64,000 bases of DNA, from NCBI RefSeq assembly GCF_000585375.1, contig NZ_KK073874.1:1984001-2048000 (forward strand), given 5' to 3'. A program made the translations under genes and the position numbers. The DNA is from Cryptosporangium arvum DSM 44712 (GTDB lineage: Bacteria; Actinomycetota; Actinomycetes; Mycobacteriales; Cryptosporangiaceae). Numbering within the stretch: position 1 is the stretch's first letter; every line of letters begins with the position of its first letter. The notes beneath the pieces are model-generated. The model did not search any database. It was not told where the DNA came from and was given only the letters and a program-made list of their open reading frames with translations. Positions 24,070-34,514 of the stretch are shown here, piece after piece.

Positions 24070-24491
24070 CGCGGCGGACGAGTCGGCCGGGCGGTCGCGT
24101 CAGCGTCTCTTCGGAGACACTGCCGAGGAACGTCCGGGCTCCACAGGGCAGGGTGGTTGTTAACGGCAACCCGGGGTGACCCGCGGGACAGTGCCACAGA
24201 AAACAAACCGCCGGTCGCTTCACGCGGTCGGTAAGGGTGAAACGGTGGTGTAAGAGACCACCAGCGCCCCGGGTGACCGGGGCGGCTCGGTAAACCCCAC
24301 CCGGAGCAAGGTCAAGAGGAGCGACTCCGGTCGCTCTGCGTGAACGTTCGAGGGCGGCTCGCCCGAGTTCACGGGTAGACCGCTAGAGCCTGTCGGCAAC
24401 GGCAGGCCGAGATGGATGACCGCCGGCCGGAGCAATGCCGCAAGGCGCTCCGGCCACAGGACCCGGCGTACAGGCCGACTCGTCCGCCGCC
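24070..24491 (+). ncRNA. rnpB: RNase P RNA, bacterial type A
   Basis: Catalytic RNA of RNase P, which matures tRNA 5' ends. The universally conserved 5' block GAGGAACGTCCGGGCTCC is at 24125, followed by CCACAGGGCAGGGTG. The central blocks CACAGAAAACAAACCGCC, GGTAAGGGTGAAACGGTG and GGTAAACCCCACCCGGAG are intact, as are GGGTAGACCGC and the 3' ACAGGACCCGGCGTACAGG. Helix P1 is an uninterrupted 18-bp pairing of 24071-24088 with 24473-24490. The ends are set from this pairing. The 3' strand of P1 coincides with the direct repeat that bounds the neighbouring integrative element. Confidence 0.96.
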
Positions 24492-24492
24492 C
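24468..24492. repeat. candidate attL: 25-bp direct repeat at the rnpB 3' end
   Basis: Identical over 25 bases to 28549-28573, and similar for six more bases on the left with one mismatch. It contains the core GTACAGGCCGACTCGTCC, which is the 3' end of RNase P RNA including the P1 strand. Because the copy here completes helix P1, insertion left rnpB functional, as expected for an element that integrates at an RNA gene 3' end. Confidence 0.85.
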
Positions 24493-24510
24493 CTCTGGTC
24501 GAGGGGCGGC
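24486..24510 (+). terminator. rnpB terminator hairpin
   Basis: GCCGCCCCTC (24486-24495) pairs perfectly with GAGGGGCGGC (24501-24510) around the loop TGGTC, followed by TT. The left arm overlaps the end of P1, and the right arm lies inside the inserted element, so the element supplies this terminator. Confidence 0.7.
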
Positions 24511-25075
24511 TTGGGGCTCTGACCTCCCGGTTCGTTGGGTGGACGTCGGTCGACATTGGTCGGCTCCGGCCGTCATCTGACGCCCTGGGCGCGCCCTGAC
24601 GCCCTGTAGACGCCCTGAGATTCGCCCTTCGTGCATCCCGTCTGCCGTCGACCCACCGCTCGCGGGAGCGGGCCGGCAGTGGGGCCGCCGCGTGCCTTCG
24701 CGTCGCCCGCTGTGCGTCGAGAGGATGGCGGCCCCGGTGACGGTCTGCTCGGCTTGCCCTGGGTCGACGGTAGGCGGGATGCCTCATCCCCGGAGCCTGA
24801 GCGCCTGCTTGTCGATTTGAGCGCGCCGGTACGGCGGGTGGATCGCCGGCGGTGGTCAGCCGTCGCACGTCGTGTGCGACGCCGTGGCGGCGCGGCCGGT
24901 GACCGGCCGGAGGCCGCATGCTCCGGCCGCGAAACGCCGACGGCGTCGACAGACGGAGAGGAGGCGCGCTGGCCGGGCCGCAGGCCCGGCCCTTGATCCT
25001 AAAGAGCACAATCCGGCAGTTAGGCATCGTCGAACTGGGCGCTCTAGGGATTGCAGTCGGCTAAGGTTCGGGACC
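24493..25075. other. noncoding left arm of the rnpB element
   Basis: No convincing gene in 583 bases. Contents are three copies of GACGCCCTG (24579, 24598 and 24609), and a 9-bp hairpin GGCCGGGCC/GGCCCGGCC with a three-base loop at 24971-24991. The sequence then becomes AT-richer just before the first cargo gene. The repeats could be integrase arm sites or replication iterons. Confidence 0.5.
24579..24617. repeat. three GACGCCCTG repeats near attL
   Basis: Exact nonamers at 24579-24587, 24598-24606 and 24609-24617. An inverted exact copy (CAGGGCGTC) lies at 28521-28529 and an eight-base direct copy at 28472-28479, both just inside the other end of the element. Copies at both ends are what arm-type integrase sites would look like; this is inference. 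Confidence 0.45.
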
Positions 25076-25603
25076 GTGGGGGACGTGCTTGCGCTGGCTA
25101 AGCCGCTCAGCGACCTTACTTGGGTCGACTGGATAACCTTCGCGGGTTTGCCGTTGGCGCTGATTGGCCTCGCCATAACCTGGTGGCAGGCGAAGTCGGC
25201 AACTGACGCCTCCAAGGCGGCGACGAAGGCCGTCAGAAGTACAGAGAGACAGCTGAGAGCGAACCGACTAATGGGGGTAGCACCTCAGCTGAGGTGGATT
25301 TCAGCGGAACTTGAGATGGCGGTAGAGGCTGGCGACGGATTGCTGGTCCGTCGATTTTTGCGTAACTGGCGTCAGCAAGGGGCTAACGCTGCTGGCTTGC
25401 TACAGGCGAGCGACGACGTCCCAGAGGAAGTGGTGCAGCGGCTGCGGAAGAGCATAGGTCTCGCCTCGACAGCTGGCGAAAGTATCCTAGCGGGAAAGCA
25501 GCCGATCGCGGATTCGTGCAAAAGAGCGCGAGTCGCTATTGCGGACTGCTGTGACGCGATTGAGCTTTGGATCGGCGAATACGCCTCCCGTACTGCCGAA
25601 TAA
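25076..25603 (+). CDS. hypothetical membrane-anchored protein, element cargo
   Basis: A 175-residue protein. Residues about 16-38 (WITFAGLPLALIGLAITWWQ) form one transmembrane helix near the N-terminus. A basic, Ala/Lys-rich helical stretch (SATDASKAATKAVRSTERQL) follows, then a mostly alpha-helical cytoplasmic domain containing two cysteines (CKRARVAIADCCDAIELW). Codon use is clearly less GC-biased than in the host genes, a sign of recent acquisition. GTG 25076 is chosen because the hydrophobic N-terminus begins there. It is followed 15 bases later by the second cargo gene. No family recognised. Confidence 0.7.
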   Translation: MGDVLALAKPLSDLTWVDWITFAGLPLALIGLAITWWQAKSATDASKAATKAVRSTERQLRANRLMGVAPQLRWISAELEMAVEAGDGLLVRRFLRNWRQQGANAAGLLQASDDVPEEVVQRLRKSIGLASTAGESILAGKQPIADSCKRARVAIADCCDAIELWIGEYASRTAE

Positions 25604-25618
25604 GGCGAAAGGCATAAG

Positions 25619-25987
25619 ATGCGTGAAGAAGTTCGGGACAAGATGATTTCTCTCGCTCGAGCACTATTGTCTCAAACTAATAAAGGTGCGCTTAATTGGG
25701 AGGAAACGGATAACGAGGATACCTTTCTGTATCCGGGTGGCAATTCAAGTTTGACCATTAGTATGGTCCGAACTCGCCGAGACGAGGAGCGTTATCGCCT
25801 CACATTGAGCAATTCTAGGGGTACGCCGGTCGAGGCGCTAGAGTCCGCCTATGACAGTATAGGTATGCAGGAGCACCCTTATACTCCGATCCTGCGGGAC
25901 CTATTCGACGCGGCGCGCGGCAATGCTTTGCAGGTGGAAACAGTCTTGGACGAGGCTCTTCGCGAAGTGCTAGGTGAAACTCCCTAA
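25619..25987 (+). CDS. hypothetical protein, element cargo
   Basis: A 122-residue soluble protein, predicted mixed alpha/beta. It has an N-terminal helix (REEVRDKMISLARALL), a beta-rich middle (LNWEETDNEDTFLYPGG, then SSLTISMVRTRR and YRLTLSNSRGTPVEALES), and C-terminal helices (ILRDLFDAARGNALQVETV). I do not recognise the family. The gene is the least GC-rich in the window, starts at ATG 25619 after GAAAGGCATAAG, and is very likely co-transcribed with the membrane-anchored gene before it. Together they look like an accessory two-gene module. Confidence 0.72.
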   Translation: MREEVRDKMISLARALLSQTNKGALNWEETDNEDTFLYPGGNSSLTISMVRTRRDEERYRLTLSNSRGTPVEALESAYDSIGMQEHPYTPILRDLFDAARGNALQVETVLDEALREVLGETP

Positions 25988-26134
25988 GCCTAATCGAGGC
26001 AACTATTTTGTCATTCTTTGGTAAAGTGGCGGCCTTCTGTCATAGTACTAATCAGGAGGTCGCCGCACCTCGACCCCTCGCCGGGTAGTGACGTGACTCT
26101 AAGAATCTCACGCAGCCTACGTGGAGTTAGATAG

Positions 26135-26617
26135 TCGACGCCACGTCGGGCGGCGGAGACCGACGCTCAGAAAGCGCACGTCGACCGGCTCGCCGCCGCG
26201 CTTCGCTACGAACCGTGCTCGGAACGGTGCGCGAACTGGCTGCTCTACGGCGTCCAGCCCCGGAACGCGAAAGCCGGTCTGGTTCCCGGTCGGTGTTCCG
26301 GCAAAGCCCACCGCCGGGAAACGCTCGGCTTCGTCGGCCGGCGGGTGCTGGTCTCCCGGAAGTGGTCCGGCAAGACGCTCACCGACCACCGCGCCGACCG
26401 CAAAGCCCACGTGCTCCGCGTCCTCGGCGCTGTCGGCAAACAGGTCGAGAACGCCGACGGCTACGTCTGGGAACGTGCCCGACCCACTGATGACGACTGC
26501 CCACCGGTCGCATCCCTGCTGATGCGCACGCTCACTGACCGCCTCCGCTGGAGACAGGAGTACGCCCACGCCCAAGAAGCCCTCGCCGACTTTTCGGCAA
26601 TCGCCCACGCCGCCTGA
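26135..26617 (+). pseudogene. truncated RepSA-type replication initiator (C-terminal part)
   Basis: An open frame without its own start that begins after an in-frame TAG. It reads ALRYEPCSERCANWLLYGVQ, then GLVPGRCSGKAHRRETLGFV and GRRVLVSRKWSGKTLTDH. This is the C-terminal region of RepSA-family initiators found on pSAM2-like elements. The rolling-circle catalytic part, which should precede it, is missing; the sequence upstream (25988-26134) holds nothing similar. It ends at TGA 26617, 17 bases before the excisionase region. Confidence 0.8.
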
Positions 26618-26668
26618 CCGGGGAGACGACGCCATGACGACGAAGGCCACTGTTTTCAGCCATCACCG

Positions 26669-26854
26669 ATGCCCCGTCGCTCTCCGACCGGCTCTGGACC
26701 GTCCAGGACGTCTCCCCACTACCTTGGCGTACCGGTCGAGACGCTCTACCGCTGGCGCAAGCACCGGACCGGCCCACCGGCCGCGAGGGTCGGCCGGCAC
26801 CTCCGCTACGAACCGGCGGACGTCCGTGCCTGGGTGAAAGCGCAGGTCGCCTGA
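26669..26854 (+). CDS. excisionase-like helix-turn-helix protein (5' part frameshifted)
   Basis: The 61-residue frame contains YLGVPVETLYRWRKHRTGPP followed by a GRHLRYEPADVRAWV wing, the MerR/AlpA-like DNA-binding fold of AICE excisionases. The expected first strand (SDRLWTVQDVS) is present just upstream but in another frame; removing one C from the CCCC run at about 26713 would join them. A second shift near the TTTT run at about 26653 would be needed to reach the ATG at 26634. The stop codon overlaps the integrase start (TGATG), so the two genes were coupled. Function is probably lost or reduced unless the shifts are sequencing errors. Confidence 0.7.
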   Translation: MPRRSPTGSGPSRTSPHYLGVPVETLYRWRKHRTGPPAARVGRHLRYEPADVRAWVKAQVA

Positions 26855-28083
26855 TGGCCCACATCGAAGATCGCTGGTTCACACCGCAACACGACGACGA
26901 CGGCAAGCTCGTGCTGAACGCGCGAGGCAAACCGGTCATGGCGCGGACGACGCTGTACGGCACCGGGCTGCGGTATCGAGTTTGCTACATCGGTCCGGAC
27001 GGGCGCGAGCGCAAGAAGTCGTTTCCCGACCGGGCCAAGCAGGCGGCCGAAGCGTTCATGGCCACCGTCGAAGCGGACAAGCACCGGGGAACGTTCATCG
27101 ACCCGGCGGCCGGTTGCATGCTGTTCGGCGAGTTCGCCGAGACGTGGTTACGGACCCGGACCTACGACAAGTCGACGATGGAGAGCCTCGAAGTACGGGT
27201 GCGGAAGCACATCCTGCCGTTCTTCGGTTCCCGGCCGCTGTCGTCGATCAAGCCCAGCGCGGTCGCGGAGTGGGATAGCGAGCTGGCCGGCGTCCTCGCG
27301 CAAGACACGCGGTCGGTCGCGTTCGCCTACCTGCGCATGATCTTGACGGCGGCCGTCGACGACGAGCGGATCGCCAAGAATCCGTGCTCGGCGAAGTCCG
27401 TGAAGCAGCCTCGGCCGGTCGAGCGTCGGGTGATCCCGTGGACGTACGACGACGTTTCGGCAATCCGCGCGAACCTGCTTCCGCGCTACCGGCCGGTCGT
27501 CGACCTCGGCGGCGGGTGCGGCATGCGACAGGGCGAAATCTTCGGGCTCGGCGTCGACGACCTGGACCTCGTCGGCGGGTGGGTGCACGTCCGGCGACAG
27601 GTGAAGCGGGTCTACTCGCGGCTCGTGTTCGGGCTCCCGAAGAACGACAAGGATCGCCGGGTGCCGCTGCCCGCGTCGATCGCAGCGGCGCTCCGGGCGC
27701 ATCTCGCCGAGTTCCCGACGGTGAGCGTCACGCTGCCGTGGGAGGACCCGTTCGGAGACGAGCGCGTGACCGTGCCGTTGGTCTTCGTCACGTCGCGGCG
27801 GGGTGCGATCAATCGGAGCCACTTCAACAGCAAGGTCTGGCATCCGGCGCTCGCGGCCGTCGGCATCCCGCATACCCGGGCGACCGGTGTGCACGCGCTG
27901 CGGCACTTCTACGCCTCGACGCTGCTCGACGCGGGGGAGAACGTCCGGGCACTGGCGACCTACCTCGGCCACGCCGACCCGGGCTTCACCCTCCGGATCT
28001 ACACGCACCTCATGCCGTCGAGCGAGGAGCGGACCCGAACCGCGATCGATTCCCTGTTCGGCGTTCCGCTGCGGGCTGCGTGA
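26854..28083 (+). CDS. int: tyrosine recombinase / integrase
   Basis: A 409-residue site-specific recombinase. It has an N-terminal arm-binding region, a SAM-like core-binding domain (residues about 90-190) and a catalytic domain with the full set R225 (GMRQGEIFGL), H347 and R350 (HALRHFYAS), H373 (LGHADP) and the nucleophile Y383 (IYTHLMP). Length and sequence fit integrases of the pSAM2/SLP1 group. It lies 466 bases from attR, as usual for elements whose attP is next to int. It should catalyse recombination at the 25-bp repeat in rnpB. Confidence 0.93.
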   Translation: MAHIEDRWFTPQHDDDGKLVLNARGKPVMARTTLYGTGLRYRVCYIGPDGRERKKSFPDRAKQAAEAFMATVEADKHRGTFIDPAAGCMLFGEFAETWLRTRTYDKSTMESLEVRVRKHILPFFGSRPLSSIKPSAVAEWDSELAGVLAQDTRSVAFAYLRMILTAAVDDERIAKNPCSAKSVKQPRPVERRVIPWTYDDVSAIRANLLPRYRPVVDLGGGCGMRQGEIFGLGVDDLDLVGGWVHVRRQVKRVYSRLVFGLPKNDKDRRVPLPASIAAALRAHLAEFPTVSVTLPWEDPFGDERVTVPLVFVTSRRGAINRSHFNSKVWHPALAAVGIPHTRATGVHALRHFYASTLLDAGENVRALATYLGHADPGFTLRIYTHLMPSSEERTRTAIDSLFGVPLRAA

Positions 28084-28186
28084 GAATGCGCAGACACAGG
28101 AATCACTGTGGCCACGCCACTACTCGACCGTTTCGTTTTGCGTTGACGTCGGCCAAATTGTGGCGAGACCAGCTCATACTTGGCGC

Positions 28187-28402
28187 ATGGCGCGCCCGTC
28201 GTGGAGTCCGCGCCGACCAAGAGGTCGGCGCCCCGTGTGGTGGGTGCTCATTCCTACGCTTGTTAGCTTGACGGCTTCACCGGCTAGCGGTTGGGACAGC
28301 CCGCCGAGCGCAGCGCAGGCAACGCTTCTTCTCGTCACCGCTGGCTCCGCCGCCATCGCCGCCTGGTTCGCCTTGCCTGCGTCGCATATTAAAAAAACGT
28401 GA
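28187..28402 (+). CDS. small membrane protein of the integrative element
   Basis: A 71-residue protein with a basic N-terminus (MARPSWSPRRPRGRRP) and two hydrophobic helices (WWVLIPTLVSLTAS and ATLLLVTAGSAAIAAWFAL), ending HIKKT. It lies between the integrase gene and attR. A weak ribosome-binding site only. Function unknown; a 7-bp hairpin (CCCGGCT/AGCCGGG, 28449-28467) follows and may end the transcript. Confidence 0.5.
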   Translation: MARPSWSPRRPRGRRPVWWVLIPTLVSLTASPASGWDSPPSAAQATLLLVTAGSAAIAAWFALPASHIKKT

Positions 28403-28548
28403 ACCCATTCATTCATGTTCGTCATTCGCTGGCCGCAGCGCGGTGAGGCCCGGCTCAGGGAGCCGGGTGCGGACGCCCTAGCGGCGCCCTGACGGATGAG
28501 GAGATGACGAAACGGCTGGTCAGGGCGTCGTCCCAGACAGACCCCGGT

Positions 28549-28573
28549 GTACAGGCCGACTCGTCCGCCGCCC
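28549..28573. repeat. candidate attR: second copy of the rnpB 3'-end repeat
   Basis: Exact 25-bp copy of 24468-24492. It stands alone here, with no RNase P RNA sequence to its left, which identifies it as the duplicated end left by site-specific integration. Confidence 0.85.
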
Positions 28574-28580
28574 TGGCCGG

Positions 28581-29022
28581 TCAGAAATGGTCGGAGCGGT
28601 CGGCCGTCCAGTGGTACTCCCCGTCGAGGTCGAGGCCCGACAGGTCGGGTTCGCGCTGGCCGACGACCGAGATTCCTCACTTCCTCGGTGATGTGGACCA
28701 GGAGCAGGCGCACGCCGCCCTCCTGGGTACCCACGGCGGTATACAGCGCTCGCGCGGCGGCGGCAGACGATCGCACGTAGCTGGCGACGGCATCAGCTGG
28801 GGCGACGATGACCACGGGGGGCTTCAGTGATCGGCTGTGAAGCGTGCCGAGGAAGATCTTTCCCGGCTGACGGACGAGAGCGGCCGACGAATGCACTACC
28901 TCCAACTCTGGTACGACTAGCCGCCGCCAAGCGTGTGCCTTGCCCCCCGTGCAGCGCCACTCGGCCGTGAACGATCCGCTTCGTGGCTGATCGGCCGATA
29001 GGGCGGTCATGCAGGTAGTCAT
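28581..29022 (-). pseudogene. hypothetical gene with a frameshift, next to attR
   Basis: Two protein-like segments in different frames on the minus strand. From ATG 29022 the frame gives VVPELEVVHSSAALVRQPG, KPPVVIVAPADAVASYVRSS and GGVRLLLVHITEE. Then another frame gives ISVVGQREPDLSGLDLDG and ends EYHWTADRSDHF at 28581. One base change of length near 28685 would fuse them to about 147 residues. Family unknown. The stop codon is 7 bases outside attR, so this gene would originally have converged on rnpB. Confidence 0.5.
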
Positions 29023-29204
29023 TCGATGGATCGCACGTCATACCGTGCTGCTCGGGCTATTCTTTGCGATCGCCGTCATCGCCGGGTAGCGAGACGCCAT
29101 CGGGCGTGTGGATGCCGGGACCGCTGTGCGTTGGGCGCGGACGGCATACGCCTCGTCCCTGCGCGCTGCTGGAACGCGACGACGACTGAGTCCCTGCAGC
29201 GAAG
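29023..29204. other. short unassigned region
   Basis: A 26-residue hydrophobic frame (MQVVIRWIARHTVLLGLFF, and so on) spans 29009-29089 on the plus strand, overlapping the start of the frameshifted gene. It has no ribosome-binding site, so I do not call it a gene. Nothing else is visible. Confidence 0.35.
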
Positions 29205-29456
29205 CTATCTAGGATTTTGAGGACGGCGCTCGACTTTCCTTCTTCGAAGGGAGCCGACGATCACCGCGTTGACTGTCGCTGCCAGGGCGAATATGCCAAC
29301 TACTCCGACGCGTGTTGCCCATTCGTGAAGAAGAGGAGCGACTGGGCGCGAGTCCTGAACTGCACCAGCCGCTACCACCAGGGCGGCGACAACAACCACG
29401 TAGCCCGCGCCGACGAGGACGTACCTCTTGTCCCGGGACCGACCGCATGGCGTCAC
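29205..29456 (-). CDS. small hypothetical membrane protein
   Basis: An 83-residue protein with two hydrophobic helices (VLVGAGYVVVVAALVVAAGA and VGVVGIFALAATVNAVIVG) and a basic tail (RRRKVERRPQNPR). GTG 29456 follows GGTAGG and starts eight bases after the stop of the upstream membrane protein, so the two form a unit. Family and role unknown. Confidence 0.5.
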   Translation of the reverse strand: MTPCGRSRDKRYVLVGAGYVVVVAALVVAAGAVQDSRPVAPLLHEWATRVGVVGIFALAATVNAVIVGSLRRRKVERRPQNPR

Positions 29457-29464
29457 GATCGGGC

Positions 29465-29824
29465 CTACCAGCACCAACTCGTGAAGTCGGCGGTCAACCC
29501 ACCCTCGTCGGCCATTCTGAGCACGCTGATGGCCACGATCAGGCCCGGCAGCCCCAGCGCGCCGCCGATCAGGCCGGCCAGGGCCAGCGACGAGCCGCGG
29601 CGCCGCCGGCGTTCGCAGCGCCGGAAGGCGATCGGGCCCAGCACCACCGCGGCTACCGAGCACGTCGCCAGGACGAGTCCCGGGGTCAGCCCGGGCTGGA
29701 TGAACGCGAAGCCGATGCCGTACATGTCCAGGTACGGCAACCCGCCCAGGAACCCGAGCAGACCGAGGACGAAGGCCACCACCGCGAGACGCTCCCGCGG
29801 CGACGAAACCACACCCTCGGTCAT
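29465..29824 (-). CDS. hypothetical membrane protein
   Basis: A 119-residue protein with three hydrophobic segments (LAVVAFVLGLLGFLGGLPYL, LVLATCSVAAVVLGPIAF and SLALAGLIGGALGLPGLIVA) separated by an Arg-rich loop. The pattern resembles DUF4190-type small membrane proteins, though I would not name the family firmly. ATG 29824 is preferred; a GTG at 29965 would add 47 non-hydrophobic residues. Confidence 0.6.
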   Translation of the reverse strand: MTEGVVSSPRERLAVVAFVLGLLGFLGGLPYLDMYGIGFAFIQPGLTPGLVLATCSVAAVVLGPIAFRRCERRRRRGSSLALAGLIGGALGLPGLIVAISVLRMADEGGLTADFTSWCW

Positions 29825-29981
29825 CGGACCCCCCGCCGAACAGATCGGCGGGGGCGCGACGCGGTTGAGGACGACCCCGGAATCAACGAACGCCCCGGAA
29901 TCAACGACCACCCCGCCCTCTTCCGGGCCACGATCGGCGAGCGCACCGGCCGGAGCGGCGATCACACCGGGTGAGGAGCGT

Positions 29982-30950
29982 TCAATCCGCGCGATTCGTC
30001 GAGACCGCGCCGACGGTCGTGCGATTCGTCGACGATTCCGAGTCTCGGCGGCGTTCCGCGTAGGCGTACGTCGCCACGCCCAGCGCCAACCCCCACGGCA
30101 GCCATAGCAAACCCGGCGCCGCGGTCGCCGACACCGAGCCGCCCTCCACCGCGAACCGGATGACCACCAACCCCGCGATCGTCACCGCAGCGGACACCAC
30201 CGAGGCCGGGACCACCGCCAGCCACACCGGCACGCTCCGCCCGCCGCGCAACGGCACCCAGCGGGGAAACCTCTCGCCCCACCGCATGATCAGACCCAGG
30301 GTCAGCAGCACACCCACCACGTCGGGGATCACCAGCATCCAGGCCGCCGCCGCGGGGAGGCCTTTGGCGGCGACGTCAGCGGCCAGATCGTCGACGAACC
30401 GCTGGGACACCCCCAGGGGGAGGCCGAGGTTCCAGGCCGCGCGCTGCAGGGCGTAGGGGAGGGGTGCGAGCACCGCGACGAGCGTCGCCCAGCGGCCGAT
30501 CGTCAGCCAGCGCCCCGCGTCGACGGCCGCCGGTCGTAGCAGCACGACCGCGGAGCGGGCGAGCAGACCCGCACCCAGCACGCACAGGGCCTGGTTGAGC
30601 ACCGGCCGGTCGACCAGGCCGAAGAAGCCGCTGAAGCTGTACGCGAGGTTCTGCAGCAGGCGGACGTCCGGCACGACGGCGAGCAACGCCGCCGCGCACA
30701 CCAGGAGTACGACCCCGGGTGCGCGGCCGGGGCGGCGCATCGCCCACACCGCGGTGGCCGCGGCGATCAGCGCGCCGCACCCCAGCGCCACGCCGGTCGG
30801 GACCGGGTGCGCGGAGGCGAGCAGACTGCCCATCTCGCGGCCCCGCGAATCGCCGTCGCCGAACGGGAAGCCCGGTGCGCCGAGCGCCCACGCGAGCGAC
30901 ATCAGACCATAAGCGACACACCAGACGGCGGTCGGAACGAGGATCACCAT
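29982..30950 (-). CDS. hypothetical polytopic membrane protein
   Basis: A 322-residue protein with about eight hydrophobic helices spread along its length and a hydrophilic C-terminal tail ending STNRAD. No catalytic motif recognised. ATG 30950 has GAGGGC directly before it. It is divergent from the histidine kinase gene with 88 bases between starts and could be a target of that two-component system. Confidence 0.72.
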   Translation of the reverse strand: MVILVPTAVWCVAYGLMSLAWALGAPGFPFGDGDSRGREMGSLLASAHPVPTGVALGCGALIAAATAVWAMRRPGRAPGVVLLVCAAALLAVVPDVRLLQNLAYSFSGFFGLVDRPVLNQALCVLGAGLLARSAVVLLRPAAVDAGRWLTIGRWATLVAVLAPLPYALQRAAWNLGLPLGVSQRFVDDLAADVAAKGLPAAAAWMLVIPDVVGVLLTLGLIMRWGERFPRWVPLRGGRSVPVWLAVVPASVVSAAVTIAGLVVIRFAVEGGSVSATAAPGLLWLPWGLALGVATYAYAERRRDSESSTNRTTVGAVSTNRAD

Positions 30951-31038
30951 GCCCTCGACGGTGCGACTTCCCGGCCGTCCCCGCCCATCTCCCGATCGGC
31001 AGACGCGAACTGTCGGTGCCCCCCTCTATCGTGAATGG

Positions 31039-32031
31039 ATGACCAGGTCACGGGCGATCGGCAGCGCGGTGGTGGCGCTCGCCGCACTGGCGCTGGCGCT
31101 CGTCGTCTCACCGGAGTTCCGCCCCGCGCGGGACACACCGACGGTCGTCGGTGTGGTCGTGCTCGCGGTGCTGGTGGGGGCGTGGCCGAACACCCGCTGG
31201 TGGATCGGCCCGGCGGCGGCGTCCGTGGTGGTCGCCACGGCGGCCGGGGTCGCGAGCTGGCTCCCGAACCCGACGATCGGCGGGGGCATCTGGTCGCTGG
31301 AACTCACCGCGGTGCTGATGGTCCTGCTCGCGTTGCTCTGCCGCTGGAGCCCTCCGGCCTGGGTGGTGGCCGTCGCGCCGGCGGGGGTCTTCGTCGAGTC
31401 CACGTTGATCCTGCAGACCACCGGCGCGCCGGTGATGACCGGCTGGGAAGCCGTCGGCGCGTGCGTGTTCTGGTCGTTGGCGGGCCTGGTCGGCACGGGT
31501 TCAGGCCTTTACCTGCGTCAGTTGGACGGCCGGCGAGCGGCCGCCGTCACGAACGCGCGGCGGGTCCAGCGGGTGCGGCTGGCCGCGGATCTGCACGACG
31601 GTGTCGCGCACGACGTGAGCGCGATGGTGCTCCAGGCGCAGGCGGCGAAGGTCCTGCTCGGGGAGCGAGCGGGCGACGTGGCGAGCGTCCTCGACCGGAT
31701 CGAGGCCGACGGCACCCGGGCACTCGCCTCGATGCAGCGTTCGATCCACGTCTTACGGGAGGGCGAGGCCGACCGGCCGATTCCGCAGCCCGAGCTCCCG
31801 GTCGTGCAGCGGGTGATCGCCGAGGCGCTCCGCAACGCCGAGAAACACGGCGACGGCGGCGGCGTGACGCTCGTGATCACGAACCCGCTTCCGTCCACCC
31901 GAAGACCGCGCGGCCCGGGGCTCCGGTACGGCCTGGCCGGTCTCGCCGACGAGGTCGAAGCGGCCGGCGGCACGTTCAGCGCGGGCCCCGACGGCGACCG
32001 CTGGACCGTGCGCCTGGAGCTGCCGTCGTGA
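31039..32031 (+). CDS. two-component sensor histidine kinase, HisKA_3 (NarL/DesK-type)
   Basis: A 330-residue membrane kinase. Residues 1-165 hold five to six transmembrane helices with no large extracellular loop. The phosphoacceptor is the histidine in RLAADLHDGVAHDVSAMVLQ near residue 185. The ATP-binding domain is short: the N-box reads EALRNAEKHGDGGG and the G-box GLRYGLAGLADEVEAAGG, with little between. The signal is unknown; sensing is probably at or within the membrane. ATG 31039 opens MTRSRAIGSAV. The stop overlaps the response-regulator start. Confidence 0.9.
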   Translation: MTRSRAIGSAVVALAALALALVVSPEFRPARDTPTVVGVVVLAVLVGAWPNTRWWIGPAAASVVVATAAGVASWLPNPTIGGGIWSLELTAVLMVLLALLCRWSPPAWVVAVAPAGVFVESTLILQTTGAPVMTGWEAVGACVFWSLAGLVGTGSGLYLRQLDGRRAAAVTNARRVQRVRLAADLHDGVAHDVSAMVLQAQAAKVLLGERAGDVASVLDRIEADGTRALASMQRSIHVLREGEADRPIPQPELPVVQRVIAEALRNAEKHGDGGGVTLVITNPLPSTRRPRGPGLRYGLAGLADEVEAAGGTFSAGPDGDRWTVRLELPS

Positions 32032-32654
32032 TCCGGGTACTGATCGCCGACGACCAGGAAGCGGTTCGGTTCAGCTTCCGGACGATTCTGAACGCCGCGC
32101 CGGGCATGCGCGTCGTCGCGGAGGCGGAGAACGGCACGCGCGCGTTGGAGCTGGCCGACGAGTACAAGCCCGACGTCGCGCTGGTCGACATCCGCATGCC
32201 GGGCCTGGACGGGCTGGAGCTGACCAAGGTGCTCTCGCCGACGATCAAGGTGGTCGTGGTGACCACCTACGACCTGGACGCCTACGTGCACACGGCGCTG
32301 CGCAACGGGGCCTGCGGGTTCCTGCTGAAGCACTCCGGCGCCGCGCTGCTGGCCGCGGCGGTCCGGGCCGCGGCCGCGGGCGACGCGCTGATCAGTCCGG
32401 AGATCACCGTGCGGCTGCTGCGCGAGCTCAGCCCACGCACGGCGGACGCCAACCCGCTCACCGACCGGGAGCTCGACATCGTCGCGCTCGTCGCCGACGG
32501 CAAGACGAACGCCGAGATCGGCGCCGACCTCTACATCACCGCCGGCACCGTGAAGACCCACCTCGCGCACATCCAGCAGAAGCTCGACGTCCCGAACCGG
32601 GTGGGCATCGCCGCCTGGGCCTGGGAAACCGGCCACCGCCGCCCCACCCGCTGA
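32028..32654 (+). CDS. LuxR/NarL-family response regulator
   Basis: A 208-residue regulator. The receiver domain has IADDQEAVRF at the N-terminus and the phosphoacceptor Asp54 in VALVDIRMPG, with the conserved Lys in FLLKHSG. The LuxR-type helix-turn-helix at the C-terminus reads LTDRELDIVALVADGKTN followed by IYITAGTVKTHLAHIQQKL-like sequence (here LYITAGTVKTH). GTG 32028 overlaps the kinase stop (GTGA). Cognate partner of that kinase; targets not evident. Confidence 0.92.
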   Translation: MIRVLIADDQEAVRFSFRTILNAAPGMRVVAEAENGTRALELADEYKPDVALVDIRMPGLDGLELTKVLSPTIKVVVVTTYDLDAYVHTALRNGACGFLLKHSGAALLAAAVRAAAAGDALISPEITVRLLRELSPRTADANPLTDRELDIVALVADGKTNAEIGADLYITAGTVKTHLAHIQQKLDVPNRVGIAAWAWETGHRRPTR

Positions 32655-32731
32655 TCCCCGCCCCGGACACGGCGTGGTCACGGCCGTGGTGACGGCGGGC
32701 GCGGTCGACCCGGTCGTTCTACGCTCGACGA

Positions 32732-33118
32732 ATGTCGACGTTCGTACCCCAGAAACTCCATCTTCGACCAGATCTGTTTGCCATCGAGCGTCACGACAGC
32801 GAGGACATCGTCGGTTCCGCCGACTGGGTCGCGCTGGTCCGCGCTCCGCAGGGTCTCACCGTGATCCGCACGGTCGCCGACGCCGCCGACGGCTGGCGTG
32901 CGTTCCAGGGCCAGTCGTCGCACGAGCTCGACGTGCCGGGGATGCTGCTCAGCATCCTCGCGCCGCTCGGGGAGGCCGGGCTCCCGGTGTTCGCCGCATC
33001 CACCTACGACGCCGACCTGGTGCTCGTCCCCGCGTCCCACGCCGAGAAGGCCGCCACCGTGCTGAGCACCGCCGGCCACGAAGTCCACGAAGACCGCGAC
33101 CACCACGAGAGCCTCTAG
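32732..33118 (+). CDS. ACT domain-containing protein (CASTOR-like)
   Basis: A 128-residue protein of the CASTOR/ACT-domain group. Its landmarks are LRPDLFAIERHDSED near residue 12, DWVALVRAPQGLTVI near residue 31, and LSILAPLGEAGLPVFAASTY near residue 72, the last being the small-ligand-binding loop. Such proteins bind amino acids, but no ligand is known here. It starts at ATG 32732 and is 16 bases upstream of the TPR gene. Confidence 0.82.
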   Translation: MSTFVPQKLHLRPDLFAIERHDSEDIVGSADWVALVRAPQGLTVIRTVADAADGWRAFQGQSSHELDVPGMLLSILAPLGEAGLPVFAASTYDADLVLVPASHAEKAATVLSTAGHEVHEDRDHHESL

Positions 33119-33134
33119 GACACGGAGTACGACG

Positions 33135-34514
33135 ATGGGCGTCGACCAGCACGGCCTGCCGACGACCGTGGCGAACCGCGCCGCGCTCGACCACTACGAC
33201 CGTGCGGTCGACGAACTGCTGCACTTCCGCGCCGAGGTCGTCGCCGAGTCCGGCGCGGCGCTCGACGAGGACCCCACGTTCCCGATGGCGGTCGCGTTGC
33301 GGGCCTACCTCGGCCTGCTCACGACCGACCACGACGACGCCGTCGCGGCCCGTGCGTACCTCGCGACCTACCGACCGGGTGAAACGCACCCGAGAGAACG
33401 AGCCCACCTGCACGCGGCGAACCAGCTCGCGGGCGGTGACTTCCACGCCGCCGGCCGCACGCTCCGCGACCTCACGGTCGAGTACCCGCGGGACGCCCTC
33501 GCGCTCGCCGTCGGCCATCAGATCGATTTTTTCACCGGTGACGCCGTCAGCCTGCGTGACCGGATCGGCGGGGCGCTCTCCGCCTGGCATCCCGACGACC
33601 GCCACTACCCGAACGTGCTCGGCATGTACGCGTTCGGCCTCGAGGAAGCGGGGCACTACGACCGTTCCGAGGACGTCGGGCGGGAGGCCGTCGACCGCGA
33701 CCCCCGGGACGTCTGGGGCATCCACGCGGTGGCGCACACCTACGAGATGCAGGGGCGCTTCGGCGACGGCCTCCGCTACCTCGACGACCGGCTCGACGAC
33801 TGGTCGAAGGACACGTTCTTCAACGTCCACAACTGGTGGCACTACGGGCTGTACGCGCTGGAGAAAGGCGACAACGCCCGCGCGCTCGAGATCTACGACA
33901 CCGTGCTGTACGACCCCGACGGCATCTCGCTGCAGCTGCTGGACGCCGCCGCGCTGCTCTGGCGCTTCGCGCTGGCCGGCGATCGGCAGACCGCACGGTT
34001 CGCCGCTCTCGTGGAACCGTGGCAGCGCCGGGCCGAGCACCCGTTCTACGCGTTCAACGACGCCCACGCCGTGATGGCTTACGTCGGCGCGGGGCGGTTC
34101 GACCTGGCCGAGGCGTTGATCCGCAGCCGCACGGAGTGGATCGACACCGAACAGCAAGGCTCGAACCACGCGATGACCGCCCGCGTCGGGCTACCCGTCT
34201 GCCGGGCGCTCCTCGCGTTCGGGCAGGCCCGCTACGAGCAGACCGTGGACCTGCTCTACCCGATCCGCGATCACGTCAACGAGTTCGGCGGCAGCCACGC
34301 GCAGCGGGACGCGGTCTACAAGACCCTGGTGGAGGCCGCGCTGCGCGCGAAGAAGCTGCCGCTGGCCCGCACGTTGATCAGCGAACGCCTGAACGTGCGC
34401 CCGTGCAGCCCGTACAACTGGCTCAAGCAGGCCGAACTGGCCCGCGCGCTCGGCGAGGACGCGGCCGCGACCGCCGCGCAGGCCCGGGCGAGCGCCTACC
34501 AGGGAACGACCTGA
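33135..34514 (+). CDS. TPR-repeat protein, TTC38-like
   Basis: A 459-residue all-helical protein of the TTC38-like group of tetratricopeptide proteins. Typical segments are DPTFPMAVALRAYLGLLT, GHYDRSEDVGREAVDRDPRD, the HNWWHYGLYALEKGDNARAL motif near residue 233 and a C-terminal NWLKQAELARALGEDA. Likely a protein-interaction or scaffold function; no partner can be named. ATG 33135 follows ACACGGAG. The last 19 bases overlap the convergent SDR gene. Confidence 0.85.
   Translation: MGVDQHGLPTTVANRAALDHYDRAVDELLHFRAEVVAESGAALDEDPTFPMAVALRAYLGLLTTDHDDAVAARAYLATYRPGETHPRERAHLHAANQLAGGDFHAAGRTLRDLTVEYPRDALALAVGHQIDFFTGDAVSLRDRIGGALSAWHPDDRHYPNVLGMYAFGLEEAGHYDRSEDVGREAVDRDPRDVWGIHAVAHTYEMQGRFGDGLRYLDDRLDDWSKDTFFNVHNWWHYGLYALEKGDNARALEIYDTVLYDPDGISLQLLDAAALLWRFALAGDRQTARFAALVEPWQRRAEHPFYAFNDAHAVMAYVGAGRFDLAEALIRSRTEWIDTEQQGSNHAMTARVGLPVCRALLAFGQARYEQTVDLLYPIRDHVNEFGGSHAQRDAVYKTLVEAALRAKKLPLARTLISERLNVRPCSPYNWLKQAELARALGEDAAATAAQARASAYQGTT

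Follow-up and report, generated by a model that had tools for sequence, protein, structure and literature searches.

The window analysed here is a stretch of 64,000 nucleotides from Cryptosporangium arvum DSM 44712, and the question it raises is how the 3′ end of its RNase P RNA gene, rnpB, came to be present twice, with an integrase gene between the two copies. An initial annotation had proposed an integrative element inserted at the rnpB 3′ end. The analysis led with high confidence to a related reading, in which the DNA from 24468 to 28573 is the decayed remnant of an AICE, an actinomycete integrative and conjugative element, whose tyrosine integrase recombines an attP bearing the last ~25–35 bp of rnpB with the 3′ end of that gene.

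The perfect 25-bp direct repeat that had first drawn attention to the locus was found at 24468–24492 and 28549–28573, and it lengthens leftward to 37 nt at 92% (24456–24492 and 28537–28573). The left copy had been assigned to the 3′ terminus of rnpB, with the 3′ strand of helix P1 as part of it, and this was borne out both by a match to the full RNase P RNA model and by the P1 5′ strand at 24071–24088, which is fully (100%) complementary to the 3′ strand in the left repeat copy. P1 at attL is formed by 16 of 16 Watson–Crick pairs, and rnpB is the single RNase P RNA gene detected in the 9.2-Mb genome. The probability of a 25-mer repeat falling by chance precisely at the end of a noncoding RNA gene is negligible, and a chance repeat was ruled out by the recurrence of rnpB tails after int in relatives. 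The direct repeats typical of AICE attachment sites are present in the window, with rnpB as the gene in place of the usual tRNA. The features of the locus are collected in Table 1.

Table 1. The window element and its attachment gene. Positions are those of the window; distances of left arm sites are from the end of the core.
Feature	Coordinates	Strand	Evidence or details
rnpB, RNase P RNA class A, attachment gene	24079..24486	+	Rfam RF00010, model 1–367 in full, 294.5 bits
attL core: rnpB 3′ end, 3′ strand of P1	24468..24492	+	25/25 identical to 28549–28573
Terminator-like hairpin directly 3′ of rnpB, element side of attL	24486..24510	+	10-bp stem, no U-tract
Three integrase arm-type sites GACGCCCTG	24579..24617 (24579, 24598, 24609)	+	+85, +104, +115
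Cargo ORF, small protein, membrane anchor predicted, low GC	25076..25603	+	ORF call
Cargo ORF, 122 aa, without family	25619..25987	+	ORF call
RepSA-type replication initiator, broken, C-terminal fragment only (aa ~412–566 of 583)	26135..26617	+	
xis, HTH_17 excisionase, frameshifted: N- and C-terminal parts in separate frames	26690..26854	+	
int, tyrosine recombinase, 409 aa	26854..28083	+	Pfam PF00589, PF14659; catalytic R225, H347, R350, H373, Y383
Right-end arm-type sites	28472..28529		GACGCCC at 28472 (+), GACGCCCTG at 28521 (−)
attR core: displaced copy of rnpB 3′ end	28549..28573	+	Direct repeat comparison

The interior had been read as rep-xis-int, the gene order of an AICE, with an integrase that keeps its catalytic residues. 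All five of these residues were confirmed, int is intact and xis is recognisable, so that the integrase and excisionase that characterise one end of an AICE are both represented; however, xis is frameshifted and rep is a C-terminal fragment that keeps the last quarter of the protein and lacks the first ~410 residues, and not the RepSA initiator required for autonomous replication. No gene for an FtsK/SpoIIIE-type Tra, as carried by AICEs, or for Spd was found within 24493–28548. The intact features of the 4.1-kb element are thus int and both att sites. Its two cargo ORFs have a GC content of 0.56 against 0.71 for the window, and family searches with the cargo genes (25076–25987) gave none: the first ORF has no Pfam, NCBIfam or PADLOC family above the cut-off, and no homologue of the 122-aa protein was found in 298 other genomes of the order. 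Because only the C-terminal RepSA fragment is left, the window copy is, judged by its gene content, AICE-derived and not itself an AICE. By the same measure replication and transfer are lost and autonomous excision is probably lost or impaired, and the copy is predicted to be immobile without help.

Integrase homologues were screened in 399 genomes of the order. Those closest to the integrase of the window (62–69% identity) came from Micromonospora and one neighbour, and almost all of them are located a few kb beyond the 3′ end of rnpB. At least 26 of 160 Micromonospora genomes have a near-complete int, 64–70% identical to that of the window, that shares strand and contig with rnpB and lies 4–19 kb downstream of it; in one more (G449) the homologue downstream of rnpB is broken into two pieces, and at least 13 further genomes have only int fragments there (26, 1 and 13 of 160 being tallies counted by hand and lower bounds). 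In all intact elements opened, a copy of the rnpB tail follows int, and where measured it is identical to the tail of its own genome at 31–34 of 34 positions. The tail was found soon after int in Micromonospora noduli, M. mirobrigensis, Jidongwangia harbinensis, Pseudosporangium ferrugineum, Asanoa iriomotensis, Catellatospora coxensis, Actinoplanes sp. M2I2 and A. flavus, so that the family extends to further genera of Micromonosporaceae. The same layout of int and rnpB tail, with its own P1 sequence and a more distant integrase, was present in two genomes (G046 and G255) of family f14. This family is probably Pseudonocardiaceae, since on the integrase tree the pair has a named integrase of Pseudonocardiaceae as its neighbour. 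Homologues of the integrase near rnpB, for which the initial annotation had suggested a database search, are carried by many independent relatives, with both the int–rnpB linkage and the repeated tails.

Further arrangements were seen at rnpB in single genomes. Three rnpB tails stand in tandem arrays in G174 and G295 (loci L071 and L070), and at locus L038 the region downstream of rnpB is duplicated at 83–95% identity, as tandem or layered elements. In G069 (L086:4569, L181:11155), a distant integrase directly adjoins rnpB but faces the other way, and a second rnpB tail (28/31) lies 16.6 kb off, which is possibly an independent adoption of the site. A second RNase P match in G383 was considered as a further attachment copy and ruled out, the region being without an rnpB tail.

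The ends of the elements were compared next, and they are linked to this integrase by two features, the arm sites and a core matched to the host. In most Micromonospora elements, arm sites (GACGCCCTG or GACGGCC variants) lie at +85, +96, +104 and +115 on the left and at −71 and −60 on the right, and this spacing recurs across families and in the window, where the right-end sites lie at −69 and −19 (inverted) from the right core. The two ends of the window element contain six CGCCCTG heptamers, a count reached by 0 of 2000 first-order Markov sequences, while any heptamer at all reached six copies in 47 of 2000. An rnpB-integrating AICE lineage is defined in this work by an int homologue linked to rnpB, by an rnpB tail after int and by arm sites at +85 to +115 and about −70 from the cores. 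The window element, with its int linked to rnpB, its tail after int and its arm sites, belongs to this lineage, which is common in Micromonosporaceae.

P1 differs in sequence from one lineage to the next, and the version present in attR is that of the lineage, as in attL. In 11 of 13 genomes, the P1 3′ strand at attL makes 16 of 16 Watson–Crick pairs with the resident 5′ strand, and these host-matched strands support the earlier proposal that the element restores P1. On the simplest reading, the P1 3′ strand of the host lineage is part of attP, and strand exchange inside this stretch rebuilds the whole ribozyme. The hairpin that follows rnpB in the window sits between the attL core and the arm sites and folds at −23.8 kcal/mol (−26 to −27 in two Micromonospora elements); it was not called by a consensus terminator scan, because it has no U-tract. 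No left arm site is closer to the core than +85, so the interval that separates core from arms, with the hairpin inside it, should be element DNA in occupied genomes; the hairpin 3′ of rnpB thus seems to come from the element. The further proposal that the element supplies a terminator fits the position and the predicted folding of this hairpin, from which a role in terminating rnpB transcription is presumed.

Taken as a mechanism, an attP bearing the last ~25–35 bp of rnpB would recombine with the rnpB 3′ end through the tyrosine integrase, a reaction that we infer from the sequence comparisons. Integration would cut rnpB within the 3′ strand of P1, and the element's copy of that strand, together with the hairpin in the attP arm, would restore a full-length RNase P RNA. 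The original rnpB tail would be displaced and stay as attR behind int. The window copy has lost replication and transfer, and probably autonomous excision as well, but keeps int and both att sites.

An empty site, in which a single copy of the repeat joins the two flanks, had been suggested as a check. Single tails in two genomes of the same genus and a shared flank in a Micromonospora genome, G476, were in agreement; a clean same-species junction was not found. In G476, for which no integrase match was present among the matches listed, the sequence that starts ~140 bp past the rnpB core agrees with that beyond attR in G303 (88%) and G367 (93%), and likewise in G055. Note that G476, the best empty site, is of another family than the genome of the window, and that ~110–140 bp adjoining the core differ. 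Within the genus of the window, G002 shows a lone rnpB tail without an element there, and G001 has a single tail followed by 5 further bases that match the right flank of the window, and then by an inversion. G003 has a 118-bp int fragment downstream of rnpB, a relic of a former insertion. G001 could serve only in part as a clean empty site, its segment 28581–34468 being inverted right at the rnpB end and the five bases being weak evidence. Comparison of L035:2782–5637 in G001 with 28579–34497 of the window places the inversion breakpoint at the rnpB 3′ end; the P1 strands are inverted copies of each other and might be involved. Overall, the proposed site-specific integration at the rnpB 3′ end was upheld by the linkage in relatives, the conserved arm sites and flanks that match an element-free genome.

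It could be argued from the intact int, and from att cores that are identical across 25 bp, that the AICE at rnpB in the window still works and can transfer itself, as the reading rep-xis-int would imply. This is very improbable, given that the intact relatives are 8–21 kb in length and have all modules; a working AICE in the window was ruled out by the broken rep, the frameshifted xis and the absent transfer genes. Alternatively, the second rnpB tail could have come from local duplication or gene conversion, with the integrase there by chance. The shortness of the repeat, only 25–37 bp, would suit such an origin, and G037 provides an example of a longer duplication of the region downstream of rnpB; however, the int-proximal tail recurs in at least 12 separate elements and the spacing between the arm sites and either core is constant, which leaves this explanation next to no weight. 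A tRNA-targeting integrase misplaced at rnpB was also ruled out, as no tRNA genes were found close to the integrase homologues examined save a few unrelated, distant ones. Neither of the two observations that the initial annotation had named as counting against it, for example homologous integrases consistently located at tRNA genes, was made.

A different alternative qualifies the remnant reading: that the integrase family is promiscuous, with rnpB as one of several targets, gained several times and not lineage-defining. On the integrase tree, nearly all Micromonosporaceae rnpB users and the window fall in one clade, within which rnpB use is nearly uniform, but the f14 users stand apart and the rnpB label needs about 7 changes, although some of the ‘other’ target labels mark the end of a contig (L119) or are only partly sampled. 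The reversed, distant integrase at rnpB in G069 also speaks for several gains, as do sister elements located at the 3′ ends of protein genes. Integrases of three close homologues (G461, G462 and G478) and of G002 C5, from the genus of the window, are not at rnpB and end at apparent 3′ ends of protein genes. Close integrases ending in this way were noted at loci L178, L185, L186 and L182. Streptomyces relatives at 45–51% identity have other repeats and no rnpB tail, and nearby tRNA genes are mostly absent. These data suggest target switching within the integrase family, and the chances of the promiscuous reading appear evenly balanced. Because close integrases use protein-gene 3′ ends and the Streptomyces relatives other repeats, the family is not strictly bound to rnpB, which is a recurrent yet exchangeable target.

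The remnant reading places the element beside AICEs of the pSAM2/SLP1/pMR2 type. The intact relatives are likewise AICE-type, with GntR regulators, FtsK/SpoIIIE-type Tra, full RepSA, HTH_17 Xis and tyrosine Int, and with rep-xis-int in that order ending at attR; in both cases the 3′ end of an RNA gene is regenerated by short direct repeats. Unlike those AICEs, the target here is rnpB and not a tRNA gene, and the window copy is without rep, tra and a working xis. Ghinet et al. 2011 (PMC3218068) describe tyrosine-integrase AICEs as mostly inserted in tRNA 3′ ends, with the pSLS sub-family excepted. By that description, the pSLS integrases resemble the present family in being a tyrosine-integrase AICE group outside tRNA genes, as are most of the Streptomyces relatives, which have no nearby tRNA. 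No pSLS by name was found among the PLSDB matches listed, and relatedness of the window integrase to pSLS is only a lead. Phage and plasmid collections gave only distant integrases, of <50% identity. The vcr islands of Dehalococcoides (PMC3146451) are genomic islands in tmRNA (ssrA) genes and share the use of a single-copy stable RNA gene as integration site, but by their description they differ in RNA gene, integrase and element type. No description of rnpB as an attachment site was found in the literature searched, where the mentions of rnpB that were checked used it in other ways; the reach of this search was limited and an earlier description is possible. Within that limit, rnpB is a new target for a known kind of element, and large island databases may already list such rnpB islands without comment.

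Stable-RNA integration sites are mostly tRNA and tmRNA genes, and a family that recurs in many genomes adds an essential ribozyme, the RNase P RNA. The family further suggests that an element can split helix P1 and rebuild it with a copy of its own. Island finders restricted to tRNA and tmRNA genes would miss these elements, and their int/attP pairs, specific for a conserved single-copy site, would lend themselves to integration vectors for Micromonospora and its relatives.

The rnpB-proximal part of the intact relatives is variable and often contains defence-like genes, among them Lamassu LmuB/LmuC (G018), a PD-Lambda-5-like protein (G030), a caspase–kinase fusion (G315) and an LRR-Roc-COR protein (G248). 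Antibiotic-producing actinomycetes may have a hotspot of defence genes here. A more far-reaching version, which is unlikely, makes rnpB of Micromonosporaceae a regular hotspot for integration and for defence genes, at which elements swap in their own P1 strand and terminator hairpin, so that integration or excision alters the 3′ end of RNase P RNA and possibly its level; if true, it would tie an essential RNA enzyme to element mobility. Cargo resembling anti-phage defence was located after rnpB at L068:1740–4967, L073:3897–5492, L075:4137–7105 and L078:4235–6481, and comprises LRR-Roc-COR, PD-Lambda-5-like, Lamassu LmuB/LmuC and caspase–kinase fusion genes.
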